Source: a virus. From it: a stretch of 38,082 bases of DNA. Under the pieces are notes generated by a model. That model ran no database searches. It was not told where the DNA came from and saw nothing but the letters and a program-made list of their open reading frames with translations. The stretch is taken from IMG/VR virus record IMGVR_UViG_3300043446_001753, positions 1 through 38,082 of that record. One strand, written 5' to 3'. The translations under genes and the position numbers were made by a program. Shown here piece by piece: positions 2,783 to 11,448 of the stretch (the first letter of the stretch is position 1; each line of letters starts with the position of its first letter).

Positions 2783-2821
2783 TTGACTTGATGCGACTTA
2801 GTAACCTCGTCGCGTTTATGG

Positions 2822-3088
2822 TTAGAAGCCAATGTCGTCTTGTTCAGCTTTCTTCGTCGGCTTCCATGTGTCAACGAAAATGCTGTGCGTTGATTTCTCG
2901 TCGGGGTTTTTGCGTCCGGCGATGACCATCCGCGCCCATCCCGTCTCCGCTGCGGCTGCATTAAGCAGCTTAGTAAGCTCAGGAATGGACTCGCGTTTAA
3001 CCGATACGTTTAGGACGCTGCCGCCATTGCTGAATTGCTTTTCACGAATCCAGACTCCGGGCAGGTATTGTTTTGTTTGTTCGCTCAT
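2822..3088 (-). CDS. Conserved phage recombination-module protein of unknown function
   Basis: 88 residues, alternating strands and helices (YLPGVWIREKQFSNGG, then ILNVSV-like segments, then THSIFVDTWKPT). It resembles small proteins found between annealing-protein and nuclease genes in other phages, some thought to bind single-stranded DNA, but I cannot name a family. The ATG at 3088 follows an intergenic copy of ATAAACGC rather than a clear ribosome site. Confidence 0.65.
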   Translation of the reverse strand: MSEQTKQYLPGVWIREKQFSNGGSVLNVSVKRESIPELTKLLNAAAAETGWARMVIAGRKNPDEKSTHSIFVDTWKPTKKAEQDDIGF

Positions 3089-3121
3089 GGTTTTGCGTTT
3101 ATGTTGGTTGTTGTTGGTTGA

Positions 3122-3856
3122 TTACGGGGTAATATCGCCTTGCGCGAAGTCCACAATGCGCTGGCAGAGTTTGTCAAACTCCGCCTTGCTCTTGGGCATT
3201 GCTGACTCAGGCCAATCTGTTTCCGCATTGCCGTCCGCTTTGATGTAGCCCTGAGCAAAGGCAAAAGCGTTTATCTCCTTTGGCAATACACCAAGCTCAA
3301 GGATTTTCGACATCATGCCGTTTAAGCGTTCAGCGTGACTCTTGCTTGGTGTGGCAGGTGCGGCAGGTTTAGGCGCAGGCTTAGGAGCGGTCTGCGGTGC
3401 GCTTGACTTGGCTTCTGGTGCGTTTTTAGGCAATGGCGCGGGAGAATGGTTCTCCGTGTCGTTGTCGCCTTCTGTAGGCACACAGAACACTTCTAGGAGG
3501 GCGTATTTCATCGCCGCGCTCATTGCTTTATTACTGCTCTTGTCGCCGGAGTCCATCGCTTCGCCAATGGTCACAGCGTCAAAACTGCTGCCATCCTCGG
3601 CACAAAAGAAGGTGTGTTTGACTTCCATCGTGGTGTAAATCAGCGCAGAGCCGGACTTGGTTTGCCGTTCTTCGCGGGTGACTTTCAAAACAGTAGGCAC
3701 TACGAAAACGCCAAGCTTGGAGAAAACAGGCTGGAAAGCTTGGTAGGCATCGTCAATGCCTCTGAATTGGTAGCCTTGCTGCTGATTCTTTCGGCCTTTG
3801 GCGATTGCTCCGACCTCAGCCATTACTTGTGGGATTAGTGTGTGGATTTTGCTCAT
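3122..3856 (-). CDS. erf: ERF-family single-strand annealing protein
   Basis: 244 residues. The N-terminal about 130 residues carry the ERF signature: LIPQVMAEVGAIAKGRKNQQ, YQFRGIDDAYQAFQPV, then TIGEAMDSGDKSSNKAMSAA and KYALLEVFCVPTEGDND. A proline/alanine linker follows (about 150-185), then a second small domain typical of ERF proteins. ERF anneals complementary single strands during recombination and genome circularisation. The ATG overlaps the TGA of the homing endonuclease gene. A fragment resembling the N-terminus of a different ERF subtype remains upstream at 4477-4557. Confidence 0.9.
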   Translation of the reverse strand: MSKIHTLIPQVMAEVGAIAKGRKNQQQGYQFRGIDDAYQAFQPVFSKLGVFVVPTVLKVTREERQTKSGSALIYTTMEVKHTFFCAEDGSSFDAVTIGEAMDSGDKSSNKAMSAAMKYALLEVFCVPTEGDNDTENHSPAPLPKNAPEAKSSAPQTAPKPAPKPAAPATPSKSHAERLNGMMSKILELGVLPKEINAFAFAQGYIKADGNAETDWPESAMPKSKAEFDKLCQRIVDFAQGDITP

Positions 3857-4464
3857 ATTTTTTTAAATGTTTTACCGCCGCACTCTTTGTATTTTCCGTT
3901 TATTTGTTTTTGTATATTTCCCGAAAAAAGACCGTATTTTTTAGCGCACTCGCTTAAGGTTTCAAAAACTTCTCCAGTGGTTTCGCACAAAATTTTAACT
4001 CTAGCCCTTCCTGCACTCCTCCTTTTTATTCCCCAATGCTCCAACTTGCCACATATTGCCGTTGCTGATTTTCCGTAAATTCTTGCTATTTCTTCAGTTG
4101 ACAGTTTTTGCTGGCAATAAAGCATTTCGGCAACTTCTTTTGTGATATACGGCTTCCAGTTGAAATGATTTTCGCCAAACACTCCAGAAATACCACCCTC
4201 TCCACCATCGCAAACATTTGCTTGAGCCTGATTTTTTCCCTTGAAGTATTTTATGTAAAAACGCTCCCTATCGTAGGCCTCAGACTCATCCAAAAGCCAT
4301 TCTAAAAACACAACTCTAAAACCGTGCTTTGCTGCAATTCTTTTCCAGTACTTATTTCTCCCTTGCCGCTCAAACGCCCTTTTTCCAGTTCCTTTTCCAA
4401 CATAAAAAACAGAGCCATCCGGTTTTTGGTGCGCGTAAACATAATAATCAATCCGCATGTCCAT
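3853..4464 (-). CDS. GIY-YIG homing endonuclease, free-standing
   Basis: 203 residues. The GIY-YIG core is at the N-terminus (YYVYAH at 7-12, VFYVGKG at about 19-25, followed by the expected arginine and a glutamate-rich helix). A helix-turn-helix follows (STEEIARIYGKSATAICGKL), then a NUMOD-like DNA-binding repeat (GEVFETLSECAKKYG and a terminal GGKTFKK). AAAGGTG lies 7 nt before the ATG at 4464. Such genes nick or cut at a specific site in genomes lacking them and spread by recombination. It is wedged directly upstream of ERF and just downstream of an ERF-like fragment, suggesting invasion of the ERF locus. Confidence 0.88.
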   Translation of the reverse strand: MDMRIDYYVYAHQKPDGSVFYVGKGTGKRAFERQGRNKYWKRIAAKHGFRVVFLEWLLDESEAYDRERFYIKYFKGKNQAQANVCDGGEGGISGVFGENHFNWKPYITKEVAEMLYCQQKLSTEEIARIYGKSATAICGKLEHWGIKRRSAGRARVKILCETTGEVFETLSECAKKYGLFSGNIQKQINGKYKECGGKTFKKI

Positions 4465-4476
4465 ATCGTAACACCT

Positions 4477-4557
4477 TTAAGAATGTGTGTCAAGAATCTC
4501 GCCTTGCGCCTTGTTTAGCGCGGCGAAAAGGTTTTTTGTGGATTCGGATTTGTTCAT
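4477..4557 (-). pseudogene. Remnant resembling the N-terminus of another ERF-type annealing protein
   Basis: A 26-codon frame whose first 20 residues, MNKSESTKNLFAALNKAQGE, look like the start of ERF proteins of a different subtype from the intact gene (the pattern SES-KNL-x-AL-x-KAQGE is common there). It ends in TAA, which overlaps the ribosome site of the homing endonuclease. It could be a scar left when the endonuclease entered or replaced an older erf gene, or simply a short peptide. The resemblance is from memory of the family; the open frame is seen directly. Confidence 0.45.
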
Positions 4558-4575
4558 GTGTTTAGTGTGTTGCGT

Positions 4576-4794
4576 TTATGTGTTTTGCTTGTAAATGCGG
4601 TCAGCGTGTTCAAATGCCTTCTCAAAGGTTTCTCCGTATCCCAAAAAAGTAGACCGATTCCCAAGTCGAATCCTTCCGACTGCGTATCTTGTTCTTGCTG
4701 GTGCGCGTCCGCGAATTGCAACCACCGAGTTCCCAAGACTTGTCATTTCAGGCCAGCGAGTTATTGCTTCTTGTATTGCTTGTTTTTTATTCAT
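4576..4794 (-). CDS. Small basic protein of unknown function
   Basis: 72 residues (begins MNKKQAIQEAITRWPEM). Its centre is arginine-rich, with beta-like GRAPART and VGRIRLGN segments, then FEKAFEHADRIY. ATG at 4794 was chosen over a longer frame because AAGGAA lies just upstream. Its TAA stop lies inside a copy of ATAAACGC. Basic charge and size suggest nucleic-acid binding, but no family is recognised. Confidence 0.6.
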   Translation of the reverse strand: MNKKQAIQEAITRWPEMTSLGNSVVAIRGRAPARTRYAVGRIRLGNRSTFLGYGETFEKAFEHADRIYKQNT

Positions 4795-4820
4795 TTGATT
4801 CCTTAGTCTAGCGGTTGCGT

Positions 4821-5015
4821 TTATGTGGGGCAAGCTAAATTCTCAAGTATTTTAATCTCAGCCAATGCCTTTTGAGCATCCCTTATCTCTTCGCACCAAG
4901 TAGGGGGCGATTGCTGTTTGTTTGAGGTCTGCATAAATGCCGATGCGATTGCCAAACCTCTGTTGATTGCGTCCCATTGCTGTTTGGTGATTGCGTTTAT
5001 AGGTTTTGCGTCCAT
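4821..5015 (-). CDS. Unknown small helical protein
   Basis: 64 residues, helical (NAITKQQWDAINRGLAIASA, then EEIRDAQKALAEIKILENL). AAAGGC precedes the ATG at 5015. A copy of ATAAACGC is translated near the N-terminus (as IN-A) and a second copy provides the TAA stop. No family recognised. Confidence 0.6.
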   Translation of the reverse strand: MDAKPINAITKQQWDAINRGLAIASAFMQTSNKQQSPPTWCEEIRDAQKALAEIKILENLACPT

Positions 5016-5031
5016 TTGATTGCCTTTTCGT

Positions 5032-5670
5032 TTATGCAGTTAATAAATGACTATAAGCTGCCCACTTGATCGGCTTGCCATCTTTGCAAGGCTTGCCTTT
5101 GTCCGTTCTCCATCCTGAAAGCATACTCATGATGTTGTCCGCGACAACTAATTCCCGCTCGACATCGGCCAATGACCGCTGGGCAGCATCACGCAACGCT
5201 TTTGCGGTGGCAGCATAATCCGGCTCATCGTCGGTATAGACGACATCCACTGATACTTTTTCTTGAGCAGACATGAACCAACTATCGCCGTCCCATTCTC
5301 CGGGGCAGTCGCATCCGCAAACAACTTCTTGCGACTGCTCCATGTAGGCTTCGTGACATTTTTCTCTCAATGTGTCGCTAATGCTGCGCGGCAGGTTTAG
5401 CGTAACATCGTCGCCAACAAATGTTTTTCCGATGTGCGCCGTGGCATAGGCTTTTTCTTCGGTTATATAGTCAAAATGAAGCCCCTGCTGTCCGCGCGGC
5501 TCAAGGTCTGCGTCTTTGCCAGTCCAGCAACAGTCAATTTCATCCCACCGCCAGCGATTGGTGGAAATGGCTTTCAATGCGTCCAGCATGGGCTGATGCC
5601 CGTAATCTTCAGGTTGGTTGAAGTAACGGTCTGGGTCTAAATAATCGTTGTGCATTGATGCGAATGACAT
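5032..5670 (-). CDS. Early-operon protein of unknown function
   Basis: 212 residues, acidic overall. N-terminal half rich in D, Y and W (MHNDYLDPDRYFNQPEDYG); a CGCDCPGEWDGD segment near residue 115 could bind metal; the C-terminal third is helical (ATAKALRDAAQRSLADVERE). AAAAGG stands 5-6 nt before the ATG at 5670. Its TAA stop is embedded in ATAAACGA, a one-base variant of the recurrent octamer. It contains the only GATC I found in the window (5068-5071). I do not recognise a family. Confidence 0.65.
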   Translation of the reverse strand: MSFASMHNDYLDPDRYFNQPEDYGHQPMLDALKAISTNRWRWDEIDCCWTGKDADLEPRGQQGLHFDYITEEKAYATAHIGKTFVGDDVTLNLPRSISDTLREKCHEAYMEQSQEVVCGCDCPGEWDGDSWFMSAQEKVSVDVVYTDDEPDYAATAKALRDAAQRSLADVERELVVADNIMSMLSGWRTDKGKPCKDGKPIKWAAYSHLLTA

Positions 5671-5740
5671 ATTTTTCCTTTTTGTTAATTGCTTTCGTTT
5701 ATGTGGTTGTTTGTTTATGTGTTAATCTCTTGCGATTATG

Positions 5741-5992
5741 TCAATCGTTCATCATGTAAAAAAACCCCGTGCTTTTTTGGTGAACACATACGCACCCGAG
5801 TTGGTATCCGTCTGTTGTCCATTTGTCTGCCCACCCGTCCGATTCAAGAGCCGCGACAACTGAGCGCGGATTAAACGTATCGTCAAGGTTAAGGTGGACG
5901 CTGCCATCATCTTCTGAAAGCATTGTTTTGGGAATGTTAAGAAACTTAGATATTTCGTTTATTGCTTTTGTGTCTTTCACTGTGTCTTTCAT
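5741..5992 (-). CDS. Unknown small protein
   Basis: 83 residues (begins MKDTVKDTKAINEISKFLNI). Start 5992 was chosen because AAAGG lies just upstream and the longer frame would run through the intergenic octamer. The C-terminal segment SDGWADKWTTDGY is aromatic-rich. The 5671-5740 gap after its stop carries two more ACATAAAC copies. Confidence 0.6.
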   Translation of the reverse strand: MKDTVKDTKAINEISKFLNIPKTMLSEDDGSVHLNLDDTFNPRSVVAALESDGWADKWTTDGYQLGCVCVHQKSTGFFYMMND

Positions 5993-6008
5993 TTTATAGC
6001 CTTTGCGT

Positions 6009-6278
6009 TTATGGTTTAACGTATCCGCCCAACTGTGCAAAGCGTAGCATAAGCTTGCCAGCGTCGTCTGAATCACTTCGCCACAAATCCCAGATGCAGA
6101 ACCTAGCCTCGTCCGGCGTGGTGGGCGTTAAATCCAACGCCGTGCAATGGAATTCCTCGCGTTTATGCGGATAAATCACATCTCGAAATTGACAGTCTAG
6201 GCGATATTTGTGGCCGCGATAGGCCACAACGCGGTTGTGCGCGTTGAATAGGGCGGTTTGAAGGTCGTCGGTTTTCAT
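6009..6278 (-). CDS. Unknown small protein
   Basis: 89 residues, mixed alpha/beta by eye, with a HKREEFHC segment and an aromatic FCIWDLWRSDSDD segment. Its TAA stop lies within ATAAACGC at 6005-6012. Two further copies of the ACCACATAAAC element stand just upstream of its ATG, so the start region has no conventional ribosome site. Family not recognised. Confidence 0.6.
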   Translation of the reverse strand: MKTDDLQTALFNAHNRVVAYRGHKYRLDCQFRDVIYPHKREEFHCTALDLTPTTPDEARFCIWDLWRSDSDDAGKLMLRFAQLGGYVKP

Positions 6279-6310
6279 GGCGTTGAATGGTTGAGTTTAT
6301 GTGGTTGCGT

Positions 6311-6517
6311 TTATGTGGTTGCGTTGTCGTATGTTAAAAGCGTGTAGTTTTTTACTCGCTTGTTAAACTCCTCAGGCTTCATGCGTCCGATTGCGTTTGC
6401 TCTCTGGCCGTCTGGCAAGGATATTCCAAAGCGAAACATTGCTTGCAACTGCTCAAAGCAAGACACGGATACGGTGGAAACGGTGCGTGTGCGCGTGTTT
6501 ATGGCGTAGTAAATCAT
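6311..6517 (-). CDS. Unknown small protein
   Basis: 68 residues beginning MIYYAINTRTRTVSTVSV, with a basic helix MKPEEFNKRVKNY. It reads like a small regulatory or host-takeover protein but no family is recognised. Stop codon TAA falls inside ATAAACGC (6307-6314). The upstream junction with the 139-residue gene holds the variant CATAAACTCC. Confidence 0.55.
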   Translation of the reverse strand: MIYYAINTRTRTVSTVSVSCFEQLQAMFRFGISLPDGQRANAIGRMKPEEFNKRVKNYTLLTYDNATT

Positions 6518-6545: not shown

Positions 6546-6965
6546 TCAATAAACCGCAATTCCGCGAGAATAAACGGAGTCTAGGACTTCCCCCGCTTGC
6601 AACTGCTCGCGCCGGAGTATGTAAAGAGCCGCTCCGCGACAGTCTCCTTGATGATAGGCTAGCAACTCAGGGAAGCTTGACATGATAGCCCGCAAGCGTT
6701 TCAATGCGCCCTTCTCGCGGTCAGCGACAGGATAGCGGCTCGTCTGCCATTGCCCCGTGTAGCGGTTTTGCCATTGGCGGACGTAAAAGGGTTTGTCCGT
6801 GTCGTCGTCTCGTTCGATGTGTCCATCATCGCAACCGCATTCCAATTCCGCCCATCGTTGCAAGGTTAGGCTAATCCGGCGAAGCTTGTTTGCTGTCGTT
6901 TCGTCAATGCCCATGCGGGACAGTGCGGACAGAATGAACTTCTTTTCTTTGGGTGATGTTTTCAT
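6546..6965 (-). CDS. Conserved phage early protein, first gene of the early operon
   Basis: 139 residues. Resembles a family of unknown function common in phages of Gram-negative hosts: a basic helix LRRISLTLQRWAELECG, an acidic DDDTDKPF stretch, RYPVADREKGALKRL, then AYHQGDCRGAALYILRRE and a terminal YSRGIAVY. The ordered match along the whole length gives good support for a real gene. As the promoter-proximal gene it should be expressed first. Starts at 6965 next to the divergent control region. Confidence 0.75.
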   Translation of the reverse strand: MKTSPKEKKFILSALSRMGIDETTANKLRRISLTLQRWAELECGCDDGHIERDDDTDKPFYVRQWQNRYTGQWQTSRYPVADREKGALKRLRAIMSSFPELLAYHQGDCRGAALYILRREQLQAGEVLDSVYSRGIAVY

Positions 6966-7139
6966 ATTCGTATTTGATTTGATTGGTTAACTAACTGGAC
7001 ACAATCTAGCATCGCGCCACAAAAACACAAGAAAAAAAATCGTCATTTTGTCCAATGTTTGCAAGGGTTTTGTGATGGCGGGCAATATTTTGTCCAAGTT
7101 GTCCTAGATTTTAGGCGTGAAAACTTGCGACAAGGCGCA
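6966..7139. promoter_or_regulatory. Divergent control region with two identical 11-bp boxes
   Basis: No gene is seen here. ATTTTGTCCAA occurs at 7045-7055 and again at 7087-7097, 42 bp apart, about four helical turns, as expected for cooperative binding on one DNA face. A half copy, TTGTCC, follows at 7099-7104, and a related inverted TGGACACAA lies at 6996-7004. On the minus strand a weak sigma70-like pair (TTGTGT, 16 bp, TAGATT) could drive the early operon. Reading direction changes here, so both early and rightward promoters are expected. Operator role is inferred. Confidence 0.45.
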
Positions 7140-7278
7140 ATGCGGGTTAGTGTGATGGCGTTGAATAAGTCATGCAAGACTTCCAAACAATTTCGGACAC
7201 TATGCTGCCTGTCTTTTTAGGCTGGCGGCAGACCTTGCATGACTCCCCGCTGGCTTAACCGCTGGCGGGGTTTCTTTT
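7130..7278 (+). ncRNA. Candidate small RNA ending in an intrinsic terminator
   Basis: An 11-bp perfect inverted repeat, AGTCATGCAAG (7168-7178) and CTTGCATGACT (7234-7244), encloses an inner stem CTGCC/GGCAG (7205-7209, 7227-7231). This is followed directly by the terminator hairpin at 7245-7278. No gene precedes the terminator on this strand apart from a possible 26-codon frame starting at 7140, so the terminated product would be a short structured RNA or a mini-gene. The 5' end is a guess. Confidence 0.45.
7245..7278 (+). terminator. Intrinsic terminator
   Basis: CCCCGC at 7245-7250 pairs with GCGGGG at 7265-7270; the stem extends inward through two G-T wobbles and GC/GC pairs around a short TTAACC loop. 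TTTCTTTT follows at 7271-7278. It works only on the plus strand. Confidence 0.8.
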
Positions 7279-7660
7279 GTCATTCGTGCCAGACACGAGC
7301 AAGGCTATATTACAACACGCCGAAAGATATTGACACGGCAAAGGTTAGACGGGGCGACACGCTTAGGCGGTCTGCTGGCATAGGCCAATAAACAACACCG
7401 AACCTCAACAACAAAACGATGTGCGGGCTAACCACCCGCGACCGCCACCGCAGCAATGCGGGACATAGACGGCACGGATGACAACGTGACCGCATCCGGC
7501 AATACTCGCCACCGTCTAAACGTCATGCGCCGAACCCCGAAGGGTTAGTGAGCAATCAAGACAAGTCCTCTCAGCAATGGGGGGACTGTCTTCACCTCGA
7601 CCGCTCAGGGTTAGCCGTTCAATCAAATAGCCCGTTTCAATCACCTTGAAAATAGTTGAA
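7279..7660 (+). ncRNA. Hairpin-rich non-coding stretch, candidate structured RNA
   Basis: No credible gene on either strand. Local perfect stems follow one another: CGTG/CACG near 7286-7298; GCCG/CGGC near 7320-7339; GCGGG/CCCGC at 7423-7439; CCGCA-GCAA-TGCGG at 7448-7461, a GNRA tetraloop; TAGACGG (7466-7472) with CCGTCTA (7512-7518) enclosing CGGATG/CATCCG (7475-7480, 7493-7498); AACCC-CGAA-GGGTT at 7533-7546; and AAGACA-a-GTCC with GGAC-TGTCTT at 7558-7592. It could be a stand-alone RNA or the leader of the two genes at 7724 and 8019. It does not show the tmRNA, RNase P or group I/II intron core signatures I know. Confidence 0.45.
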
Positions 7661-7723: not shown

Positions 7724-7993
7724 ATGAACAGCACATTCAAAAAATTTAACGCTAGCGAACAAGGCGAAATTATCGCCATACGCTGGCTTCGTGATTGCGA
7801 AAAGCGGATTGCTTCTGGCAAGCAAACTTACAAAATAAGCGAGCAGCCGGATTTGTATTTTGCTGAACTTATCGAATCAGGCACAGGCACGAAAGCAAGT
7901 CTGCAATCAATCAAATCATTCGCGATTCAAGCGGCGAAAGAAATGTTGATTTCTGGGCAATATCCCGTTGTGCTCAATCACTTCACGAAATAA
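7724..7993 (+). CDS. Unknown small protein
   Basis: 89 residues (begins MNSTFKKFNASEQGEIIAIR). Amphipathic helices, no membrane segment. ATG at 7724 was preferred over an upstream GTG at 7703 because AAAGGGA lies between them at usable spacing. It is the first gene rightward of the non-coding region and forms a two-gene unit with the next gene, closed by the terminator at 8259. This could be a regulatory or immediate-early pair. No family recognised. Confidence 0.6.
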   Translation: MNSTFKKFNASEQGEIIAIRWLRDCEKRIASGKQTYKISEQPDLYFAELIESGTGTKASLQSIKSFAIQAAKEMLISGQYPVVLNHFTK

Positions 7994-8018
7994 CCAGTCC
8001 AATCAAATCAAAATCAAT

Positions 8019-8237
8019 ATGAAAAAAACACTCGCAAAAATAGCAAAAGAGCTTGAGTTCAAATCAGACATTTACCACATGGGGAAGCGCATCCTGTCAT
8101 TTGAGGGGAAATGGGTTTTTGACGAATCAAACCTGTATTTTGTTCGCAACGGAAAAGCCGAAAAAATAGACTGCAAACAACTGACAAACGGCCACGGCGA
8201 ATCAATATACAAGCAATATTTTGACGACAACAAATAA
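8019..8237 (+). CDS. Unknown small protein
   Basis: 72 residues, lysine-rich (MKKTLAKIAKELEFKSDIYH), then a beta-rich stretch (FEGKWVFDESNLYFVRNGKA). The start at 8019 is the methionine closest to the protein-like region; the longer in-frame extension is serine/asparagine-rich noise. It is followed 21 bp later by a perfect intrinsic terminator. Function unknown. Confidence 0.6.
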   Translation: MKKTLAKIAKELEFKSDIYHMGKRILSFEGKWVFDESNLYFVRNGKAEKIDCKQLTNGHGESIYKQYFDDNK

Positions 8238-8258: not shown

Positions 8259-8282
8259 ACCCGCCTAACCAGCGGGTTTTTT
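8259..8282 (+). terminator. Intrinsic terminator after the two-gene unit
   Basis: ACCCGC (8259-8264) and GCGGGT (8272-8277) form a perfect stem around the loop CTAACCA, followed by six T. The hairpin at 7423-7439 has the same seven-base loop with the stem arms exchanged (GCGGG first, CCCGC second). Confidence 0.85.
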
Positions 8283-8555
8283 GTTGCCCAGACGATAAAC
8301 CAACCCACGCAACAACCATGCCAAGCCAGCAAACAAAATCACAGAATATTTTAAGCCATAAAAGCACATTGGCACGGTGTTTTTCTGTATCGTTAAAAGC
8401 CAGATTGCCCGCTATCACCATACCACCCGCCACAGAATCCCACGCTTCCCCAATGATTAACGGTAAAGCAGAATCACATCAAAACGCGCCATAAGCCAAA
8501 TCCACTTTGCACCACAAAGCTTGCCAAGTGACCACAAATAAGCTATTTTGCCAGC
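8283..8555. other. Non-coding gap between terminator and small terminase gene
   Basis: Apart from the promoter at 8521-8549, no gene could be supported. A minus-strand frame (8242-8433) would encode two hydrophobic segments but lacks a good start and runs through the terminator; a 58-codon plus-strand frame (8318-8494) has no protein-like features. Recombination junk or a packaging-related site are possible. Confidence 0.4.
8521..8549 (+). promoter_or_regulatory. Sigma70-like promoter of the terminase unit, nearly leaderless
   Basis: TTGCCA at 8521-8526, a 17-bp spacer, and TATTTT at 8544-8549. The start codon of the small terminase begins at 8556, only 7 nt past the -10 box, so transcription should begin at or next to the ATG. 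No ribosome-binding sequence precedes the gene, which fits a leaderless mRNA. Confidence 0.5.
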
Positions 8556-9101
8556 ATGGGCAAAGCTAAGACGAAATCAACTGACAACCAAGCAATCACA
8601 CAGGCAAAGGCTAGGCAAGCCGGACTGGTGAAGCGTGGCCGCAGGATAGACGAGCAGGCCGCCTATGAGATGGCCGGACTAGTCGCCAAACGTATCACAG
8701 AGACGGGCGCAGCCATGATTCTAGGCATCAATCCGCAGACTTGGTTCAATTGGAAAAGCTTAAACAGTAGTAAGTTTAGTGATTTACTAACGTATGTGCG
8801 TGAGGCTAAACTGTCCGCTACCTTAGATGCGATAGACGAAGCAGGCGACGGCAAGGTGATTGAGACGCCAGACGGCCCTGTCGTAGTTGCTAGGGCAGAC
8901 TGGCGCGCTAAAGCTTGGATGGCTGAACGTGCGCTTGCGCCCGAACGCTTCGCCAAACAACCAGAGCAGACGACACAGCCTACCGTCAACGTGCTTGTGA
9001 CCAGCGAACTGTCGCGCCTCGTGTACGGCGATGCTATTGAAGCGCAGGTTGTCAGCGATGCGACGGAGCGGAAGGCAATTGCGTCGGGTGATGGCGGATA
9101 A
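8556..9101 (+). CDS. terS: Terminase small subunit
   Basis: 181 residues. Residues about 30-75 hold a helix-turn-helix (AGLVAKRITETGAAMILGIN, then QTWFNWKSL), which would recognise the packaging site. The segment DWRAKAWMAERALAPERF is typical of small terminases of this type, and the C-terminal tail would contact the large subunit. Start ATG follows a promoter with almost no leader. The unit is separated from the large subunit by a 399-bp non-coding stretch and two small genes, which is unusual; the stretch may hold the packaging site. Confidence 0.82.
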   Translation: MGKAKTKSTDNQAITQAKARQAGLVKRGRRIDEQAAYEMAGLVAKRITETGAAMILGINPQTWFNWKSLNSSKFSDLLTYVREAKLSATLDAIDEAGDGKVIETPDGPVVVARADWRAKAWMAERALAPERFAKQPEQTTQPTVNVLVTSELSRLVYGDAIEAQVVSDATERKAIASGDGG

Positions 9102-9500
9102 TAAACACCCGCCAGCCCCGGTGTGCGAACATTACCCCACACTAATTTTGCCTACCCTATTGCCAAATCTCTTATCCACGCACTTGTGTTGTTGCAAATG
9201 CTTTTGTTTCAATGCGTTGCAAGTTGACGTGGTGTGGGCAGGGAAGTCCCCCTTGTCGGGGTTGATTCGTAGAAGTGCTGGCGTTTGCGTAGCTCGGTCA
9301 TGCGGTAGCTAATGGTCTAGGAATCCCACTCTTGGTAGAGTCATGGCGGGTGCGGCGTGGTTTGGGCGCGGCTGTCGTGGTGTTGTTTTACAGGTGACGT
9401 GTTGTTTATCAGCCTATGCTGGCAAGCCCGAGTCGGTGCTGCCCGTCCTAACCTGCTGACGTTATCAAAGCCTTTCGTCAGATAATGTGTGTAAAGTAGC
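9102..9500. other. Non-coding stretch between terminase genes, candidate packaging region
   Basis: No convincing gene. A 73-codon frame from 9091 overlaps the terS stop but is an unlikely cysteine-rich sequence. Visible structure: GTGTG/CACAC near 9121-9142, CCCC/GGGG around TTGTC near 9248-9261, ACTCT-TGGT-AGAGT near 9328-9341 and a perfect CTGACG/CGTCAG stem near 9456-9481 whose loop offers the alternative TTATC/GATAA pairing. Phage packaging sites usually lie in or next to terS, so this is the natural place to look for cos or pac. A tRNA was considered and rejected for lack of a T-arm. Confidence 0.4.
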
Positions 9501-9951: not shown

Positions 9952-11448
9952 ATGAGTCGCCAAAAAATTTTAAAACCACCTATTCCCAAGTTGTCGGCTG
10001 AACAACAGGCGGCGATTAACGCTTTCCGTCCGATGTGGGAATACGGCAAAAAGCTTGGCTGTCCTAAAGAGCAGTTGGAGAACTTCACCAAAGCGAACAT
10101 ATTTCTGCAACCTAAACAGCTTGAGTTCTGTTCTAAAGCGCGGGAATGTGACCATGAAGGCGGGCCAACGGCGGTGATGAGCGGTGGCGGACGTGGCAGT
10201 TCCAAATCCCATGCGATTCTGGCGCAGATATTTGCGGACGATTGCCAACGGTTTTCCGGTCTTAAAGTGCTGCTTTTGCGTAAGATAGGCAAAGCCAACC
10301 AAGAACAAGTTCAGGATTACCGTACTAAACTGCTTAACGGCTTGGCGCATGATTACAAGCAACAAGCGCAGGAAATCATCTTTGAAAATGGCAGTAAAGT
10401 GCTGATGGGCAACTTCAAGGACGAAAAGGACATTGACAGGTATATGGGGCAGGAATATGACGTTATCTATTTGATGGAGTCCAACCAGCTTACCTTTGCC
10501 AAAAAGAAGTTCATCCTTACCTGCTTGCGTACCAGCAAGGCTAATTGGAGACCGCGATTGTATGAGGACACCAACCCCGGCGGCGTGGGTATGGCTGAAA
10601 ATAAGCAGATGTATGTCATCCCGTGGCGGCTTGGTAAAGAAAAGGAGACGGGTACTAGGTACATACATTCCACGGTTTATGACAATAAATTCATCAACAA
10701 AGAGTATGTCAAGCAGCTTGAAAGTCTTACCGGATGGCAGCGCAAAGCGTGGTTGGACGGAGATTGGGATTTCGCCGCAGGCTCGTTCTTTACCAATTTC
10801 GTACCAGACCGCCACGTTTACCCCAACCATCACGTCGCGTTCGACGAAAAAACTGCCGTCCGGTGGTACGCCTCTTACGATTTCGGATTTGCTCACAATG
10901 CGGCTTGCATTTTGTTTGCCCAAGACAAAAAGGGGCTGACTTACATCGTGGACGAATGGGTGGACTCGGAAAACGTCATTTACGAGCAGGCTGAGAATAT
11001 CAAAGCCATGCTTAACGCGCACCATTTGAGCGTAGGCGACCTTTATTTCTTTGTGGCTGGTCGAGACTGCTTCAGCCGCAACGAGGACGGAAAAACGATT
11101 TCTGATGCGTTTAGCGAAAATGGTATAGATTTCTCGGTGGCCGAAGTGGACAGGGCTAACGGATGGAAGCGTTGCCATGCGTTGTTTGGCGACATATCAG
11201 CCAACATCCCGTCCAAAGGTTTTATTAATCAACGGTGCAAAAACCTGATTACACAGATTCAACTAGCGCAACACAGCGAAAAGCGGGCTGGAGATATTGA
11301 GAAGTTCAACGCTGACACAGAAGGCAACGGTGGCGACGATGCGCTTGATGCTTTCAGGTTCGGAATTGCAAGTGACCCTAATCACGCCATCAACTTTGCT
11401 AAACCCGTGTCTCTGAGCCGAAGTCCTTATCAGTTGATTGGGTTGTAA
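9952..11448 (+). CDS. terL: Terminase large subunit
   Basis: 498 residues, usual length for the family. ATPase domain: Walker A GGGRGSSKS at 78-86, Walker B-like strand DVIYLMESNQ at about 170-179 with E176 as the likely catalytic acid, and TNPGG at 207-211 as a coupling motif. RNase H-like nuclease domain: D310 in WYASYDFGF, then DD at 462-463 and D466 in GDDALDAFRFG. It is the motor that cuts concatemers and drives DNA into the prohead. The last 50 bp overlap a convergent minus-strand gene. Confidence 0.95.
   Translation: MSRQKILKPPIPKLSAEQQAAINAFRPMWEYGKKLGCPKEQLENFTKANIFLQPKQLEFCSKARECDHEGGPTAVMSGGGRGSSKSHAILAQIFADDCQRFSGLKVLLLRKIGKANQEQVQDYRTKLLNGLAHDYKQQAQEIIFENGSKVLMGNFKDEKDIDRYMGQEYDVIYLMESNQLTFAKKKFILTCLRTSKANWRPRLYEDTNPGGVGMAENKQMYVIPWRLGKEKETGTRYIHSTVYDNKFINKEYVKQLESLTGWQRKAWLDGDWDFAAGSFFTNFVPDRHVYPNHHVAFDEKTAVRWYASYDFGFAHNAACILFAQDKKGLTYIVDEWVDSENVIYEQAENIKAMLNAHHLSVGDLYFFVAGRDCFSRNEDGKTISDAFSENGIDFSVAEVDRANGWKRCHALFGDISANIPSKGFINQRCKNLITQIQLAQHSEKRAGDIEKFNADTEGNGGDDALDAFRFGIASDPNHAINFAKPVSLSRSPYQLIGL

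Follow-up and report, generated by a model that had tools for sequence, protein, structure and literature searches.

The rightward genes of this phage are preceded by a structured leader RNA and a structured non-coding body, and the RNA structure of both parts is well supported. The window (the whole 38,082-nt stretch of DNA that was analysed) represents a linear 38-kb virus record, and its best-supported RNA occupies positions 7168–7302, where an 11-bp stem surrounds a conserved core and is followed by an intrinsic terminator, a U-tract and a hairpin with the loop CYAGA. The first-pass annotation had flagged the adjacent region 7279–7660 as either a new class of large phage RNA or an intricate leader. 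This view gained support from covariation, which it had proposed as a check and which was found in two independent comparisons, namely of the leader with a related phage and of the body with a second copy in the same genome. The best-supported part (7168–7278) and the inverted second copy (9497–9190, minus strand) had both been missed. Thus, the reading as RNA holds but its boundaries do not, as the conserved RNA starts approximately 110 nt upstream of the flagged region and takes in the terminator that had been treated as an outside landmark.

Genomic context of the structured region

The early genes of the phage, including those for an exonuclease, an Erf-like annealing protein and replication protein O, are directed leftward, the last of them starting at 6965. 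The rightward genes comprise, in order, two small ORFs without a family match (89 aa, 7724–7993, and 72 aa, 8019–8237, both on the plus strand), the terminase small subunit TerS (8556–9101, plus strand; phrog_4102, E-value 2e-5), TerL (9952–11448), the portal and the capsid; TerS sits between the two copies of the RNA body. Both flanking terminators described previously were found, at 7245–7270 and at 8259–8277, the second extending over 8259–8285 in all (plus strand). The placement of the flagged region between divergent operons was slightly off, since the putative divergent promoter gap spans approximately 6966–7160 and the region lies to its right, following an attenuator-like terminator. 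A 278-nt non-coding A/C-rich stretch (8278–8555; 33% A, 33% C) with no significant folding separates the second terminator from TerS. The capsid matches an Akkermansia phage at 27% and TerL a planctomycete plasmid at 43%, which hints at a host in the PVC group.

A related phage is represented by two IMG/VR contigs of the same phage, L001 and L002, which have nine differences and whose TerL matches that of the window at 78%. Eight of the nine differing sites fall into one 73-bp stretch (L001 10924–10996) near the end of the portal gene, the two contigs coming from two metagenomes. The syntenic site in L001 is also non-coding and located between the leftward early operon and TerS. The flagged region itself is T-poor and non-coding, its longest wholly internal ORF having 61 aa, which agrees with the earlier statement that it holds no credible gene; a 162-aa open frame at the syntenic place in L001 has no counterpart in the window and was ascribed to T-poor composition. 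A search of the whole window against Rfam 15 yielded no family at or above the gathering threshold, a lax E-value gave only chance-level scores in both the window and L001, and no tRNA or tmRNA was matched by ARAGORN in the window.

Conserved leader RNA and its terminator

The leader RNA (7168–7244, plus strand; fold z-score −5.2) is closed by the 11-bp stem P1 (7168–7178 with 7234–7244) and contains the inner hairpin P3 (7203–7209/7224–7230) with the apical element GUCU-UUUU-AGGC at 7211–7222. The intrinsic terminator (7245–7278, plus strand), which consists of the hairpin at 7245–7270 and the U-tract UUUCUUUU, begins at the base after P1. It is followed by a conserved post-terminator block (7279–7302) with the hairpin UCGUG-CCAGA-CACGA at 7284–7298 (UCGUC-CUAGA-GGCGA in L001), the pair probability of which reaches 0.93–0.99 in context. 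Upstream of the leader, a candidate promoter, the pair TTGCGA-17-TAGTGT (7125–7153, plus strand), ends 14 nt before P1. It is a weak match to the sigma-70 consensus and is absent from the output of a standard scan; the promoter-like pair of L001, TTGACA-17-TAGTGA, is likewise located exactly 14 nt before P1.

The two phages have a common leader architecture, comprising the 11-bp P1, an inner hairpin with GUCU-UUUN-AGGC at its end, a terminator that begins at the next base, the U-tract and the CYAGA-loop hairpin, and a 30-nt block from the U-tract onward is common to both, with the U-tract itself identical. A covariance model built from the window alone recovered L001 2808–2950 with 50.9 bits (E-value 3e-9 in 0.47 Mb), the next match scoring 17 bits. 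Across 7168–7302, 15 of the 37 base pairs are changed on both sides relative to L001 and 98.6% of cells are paired, which none of 500 shuffles reached, the alignment being fitted to the structure of the window so that these counts lean towards it; slid versions of the alignment pair at 37–47%. P1 forms a perfect stem in each phage with almost no shared sequence, ten of its eleven pairs being changed on both sides.

Instead of RNA, the palindromic block 7271–7302 and the repeats around TerS could represent DNA sites, such as cos, pac or single-strand initiation sites that work through hairpins in the DNA. In favour of this are a 17-bp invariant stretch, the position beside the terminase small subunit and the inverted copies on either side of that gene. 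We regard this explanation as quite unlikely, because the covariation of P1 and the terminator, with U·G pairs conserved, is that of an RNA leader, the leader follows the promoter-like pair at a fixed distance, and hairpins with compensated stems and conserved loops would not be expected from recognition of double-stranded DNA.

P1 and the terminator fold together, and when the terminator was forbidden no alternative or antiterminator helix emerged in either the window or L001, so a riboswitch logic, in which a mutually exclusive antiterminator links the aptamer stem to the terminator, was rejected. Read-through would accordingly depend either on an additional factor or on the leader acting on the polymerase. 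A near-perfect 14-nt complementarity between the conserved block and the body (7277–7290 with 7471–7484) was also considered and rejected, being borderline (29 of 500 shuffles) and lacking a counterpart in L001. Conservation between the phages runs 22 nt past the U-tract, suggesting that RNA made after read-through matters and arguing against a purely trans-acting terminated RNA, which would not need such conservation.

Predicted fold of the body and its inverted copy

The flagged region folds on the plus strand with −128 kcal/mol, compared with −106 ± 5.3 for dinucleotide shuffles (z-score −4.13, 0 of 100 shuffles), and on the minus strand with a z-score of −2.33; the stems named in the first-pass annotation are present. 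The z-score is −4.47 for 7303–7640, which excludes the conserved 5′ hairpin, and −4.75 for the sub-domain 7343–7523, where the minimum free energy (MFE) structure is close to the centroid. The structured body (7303–7632, plus strand) is predicted to be closed by GGCUAU (7303–7308) and AUAGCC (7627–7632). It includes the hairpin H1 (GCCG/CGGC, 7319–7339) and a multibranch domain (7346–7520) closed by UAGACGGGGCGA and UCGCC-A-CCGUCUA, in which UAGACGGGGCGA (7346–7357) and the CCGUCUA strand form a 12-bp closing stem in the MFE and centroid structures alike. The 7-bp stem UAGACGG/CCGUCUA reported earlier at 7466/7512 does exist, but CCGUCUA pairs better with the upstream UAGACGGGGCGA. Further predicted elements on the same strand are the hairpins H2 (UGGC-AUAG-GCCA, 7376–7387), P6 (CCGCA-GCAA-UGCGG, 7448–7461, the GNRA hairpin already described) and P7 (GGAUG/CAUCC, 7476–7497, with a 12-nt loop ending in GACCG), as well as the previously noted bulged hairpin at 7558–7592 (−20.3 kcal/mol, z-score −5.2), for which no counterpart was recognised in the inverted copy.

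The body (7303–7600) has an inverted and diverged copy in the non-coding gap behind TerS (9190–9497), the minus strand of which aligns to the flagged region along its length with approximately 55% identity between body and copy. It is the best-aligning of all window segments on either strand, with a local alignment score of 171 compared with 101.6 ± 9.0 for dinucleotide shuffles (maximum 139.5, n = 500). A search of the window and relatives with the covariance model of the body gave a match on the minus strand of the window at 9370–9428 (26 bits, E-value 2e-5), and the 21-base motif GCATAGGCYRATAAACAACAC occurs at just two places, the body and the inverted copy. For the most part, the internal gaps of the alignment have lengths not divisible by three, which speaks against a coding origin.

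Four hairpins of the body have counterparts in the inverted copy, namely H1 (GACG/CGUC, 9458–9479), H2 (CAGC-AUAG-GCUG, 9410–9421), P6 (ACUCU-ACCA-AGAGU, 9328–9341) and P7 (UAGCU/AGCUA, 9290–9311, with the loop again ending in GACCG). Among their 18 base pairs, 11 are changed on both sides, including all five in P7, and none is broken, whereas slid arms pair at 3 to 8 of 18. These four hairpins were initially chosen by eye, and a choice-free re-test was therefore made with six hairpins of the plus-strand copy, positions given by sequence alignment alone and Watson-Crick pairs only. Four of the six recur at a tolerance of 6 nt (shuffle mean 0.30) and three at a tolerance of 2 nt, in each case with 0 of 2000 shuffles reaching the result, although the shuffles erase sequence conservation and are thus a lenient control for H1 and H2, in whose stems part of the sequence is the same in both copies, P6 and P7 being unaffected. 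RNAalifold gave a z-score of −5.0 for a hand-anchored alignment of the two copies, a value biased by the anchors, and −1.0 to −1.7 for plain MAFFT alignments, in which the stems are misplaced. The comparisons comprise two independent leaders and two body copies, the only ones known.

The inverted copy taken alone folds no better than shuffles, and it has neither a leader nor a recognised promoter. This copy may give rise to an RNA of its own or may be a duplicate that has decayed; its covarying hairpins favour the first possibility. The leader and the body could be two stand-alone RNA genes, the leader being a trans-acting small RNA (approximately 7160–7278) and the two body copies being separately transcribed and acting in trans. 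Such an arrangement, compatible with the leader having its own promoter-like pair and terminator and with a second body existing without a leader, is possible though doubtful, given that conservation continues through the hairpin beyond the terminator and that neither copy of the body was found to have a promoter of its own.

Comparison of the body with L001 and search for further relatives

Past the first approximately 30 nt, the sequence similarity between the window and L001 is no higher than that of shuffles. The corresponding stretch of L001 folds modestly in part (z-score −2.2 for 2951–3300 and −3.3 for 2965–3182) and has a z-score of −1.2 as a whole. With a purpose-written sequence-structure aligner, the score of the body against L001 was reached by 2 of 230 stability-matched L001 shuffles and by 0 of 120 window shuffles; among real genomic segments it was reached by 1 of 160 and by 6 of 160, and a control above the observed score (L001 7200) corresponds to the start of the terminase gene on the plus strand and was taken as chance. 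The covariance model of the multibranch domain (R3) does not recover the L001 site. Conservation of the body in L001 is therefore suggestive only.

These weak similarities, together with the inability of the inverted copy to outfold its shuffles and the weak RNAalifold z-scores of the plain MAFFT alignments, are what would be expected if only the leader were functional, with 7303–7660 being an unconstrained spacer with chance hairpins and the inverted copy an old duplication. The fold of the window body (z-score −4.5), the retention of four of six predefined hairpins in the inverted copy, the 11 of 18 compensated pairs and the L001 sub-domain with a z-score of −3.3 all speak against a mere spacer, and we find it unlikely.

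Searches for further relatives identified no other phage with this RNA. Pattern scans with the 30-nt conserved block yielded only the L001/L002 phage and chance matches, mostly within coding sequence, and a looser scan gave 119 stretches, none of which has an upstream terminator except the known ones. Searches with TerS, TerL and the capsid brought together 32 terminase loci and a single additional relative by its capsid; neither the leader nor the body was found in these outside L001/L002. Host genomes yielded no TerL relatives, and the Akkermansia phage Chantilly and an Isosphaeraceae plasmid gave no match. The motif of the inverted copy had no match in the collected loci or, by BLAST, in phage and plasmid collections.

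Possible role at the packaging genes

In the reading that we consider most likely, at about even chances, the unit would act as a leader/attenuator gate in front of the rightward packaging genes, and the body would belong to the read-through transcript as a structured portion without coding function. The rightward transcription unit would start near 7160, and its first approximately 115 nt would form the conserved leader (P1 and the inner hairpin) abutting the intrinsic terminator, so that the default product would be a short terminated RNA. Read-through, aided either by a Q-like phage factor or, in the manner of put, by the leader RNA itself, would yield a transcript with the post-terminator hairpin, the structured body of approximately 330 nt and then the small genes or the terminase genes. 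The position of the leader, which is the same in both phages between the leftward early genes and TerS, is consistent with this gate, whereas the second terminator (8259–8277), which separates the unit from TerS in the window, and the weak consensus match of the promoter count against it. The gate leaves the inverted copy, with no leader or recognised promoter of its own, unexplained. Comparison of the tested early genes with PHROGs revealed none of the Q or N type, most of the tested early proteins being without a PHROGs match. We hold it rather unlikely that the elements make up a new phage RNA class in which an inverted pair around the TerS gene, made by leader-terminator read-through, directly controls packaging, for example by RNA binding to TerS or to the RNA polymerase of the packaging operon.

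The logic of the proposed attenuator gate resembles that of two known systems. In the late leader of phage lambda, the promoter pR′ is followed by the 6S RNA and the terminator tR′, which is relieved by Q. The order of promoter, short leader RNA and intrinsic terminator before late or packaging genes is alike, here as sequence features only; by contrast, in the phage analysed here the leader structure covaries and a large structured body follows, and neither a Q homologue nor a qut site was recognised. The put RNA of phage HK022, an element of approximately 70 nt with two stem-loops that follows the early promoters, requires no phage protein (PMC9378689). Like the element described here, it is a stem-loop leader of a nascent phage transcript, encoded directly after a promoter (here a candidate one) and ahead of terminators (PMC9378689), but the present leader differs from put in size and anatomy, having approximately 115 nt and an 11-bp closing stem and preceding packaging genes.

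The phi29 pRNA is a structured phage RNA encoded near packaging functions. The RNA described here shares this location but has a different anatomy and no Rfam match, and its phage encodes a TerS/TerL terminase. GOLLD and ROOL are both much larger than the present RNA and, unlike it, are represented in Rfam. Both are large structured non-coding RNAs of phages or prophages (PMC12286853).

Few large structured RNAs encoded by phages are known, and most of them still lack an assigned function. The present RNA combines a conserved promoter-leader-terminator module, a fixed place beside packaging genes and a second copy in the genome, features that make its possible function, either antitermination or an RNA role around the terminase, directly testable with a reporter. 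A leader that worked without any protein would extend put-like elements beyond the lambdoid phages, probably to phages of PVC bacteria.

Additional sequence elements

Several further repeats were observed in one or both genomes. The element GCGTTTATG is strongly enriched around the early-operon genes, with eight copies in window positions 2812–6315 (0.54 expected) and eight in L001 3916–4508 (0.17 expected). The putative divergent promoter gap of the window contains operator-like elements at 7045–7112, specifically, ATTTTGTCCAA repeats at 7045 and 7087 and TGGACACAAT further left. Tandem copies of AAAAAGCTACACCGTGCGC were found in L001 in the non-coding gap between TerS and TerL (4690–4760). 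Finally, two oppositely oriented genes of the window are preceded by a common leader sequence, CCAATCAAATCAAA...ATGAAAA (6953–6986, minus strand, and 7999–8031, plus strand; 85% identity over 34 nt), which is possibly a translation-initiation motif.
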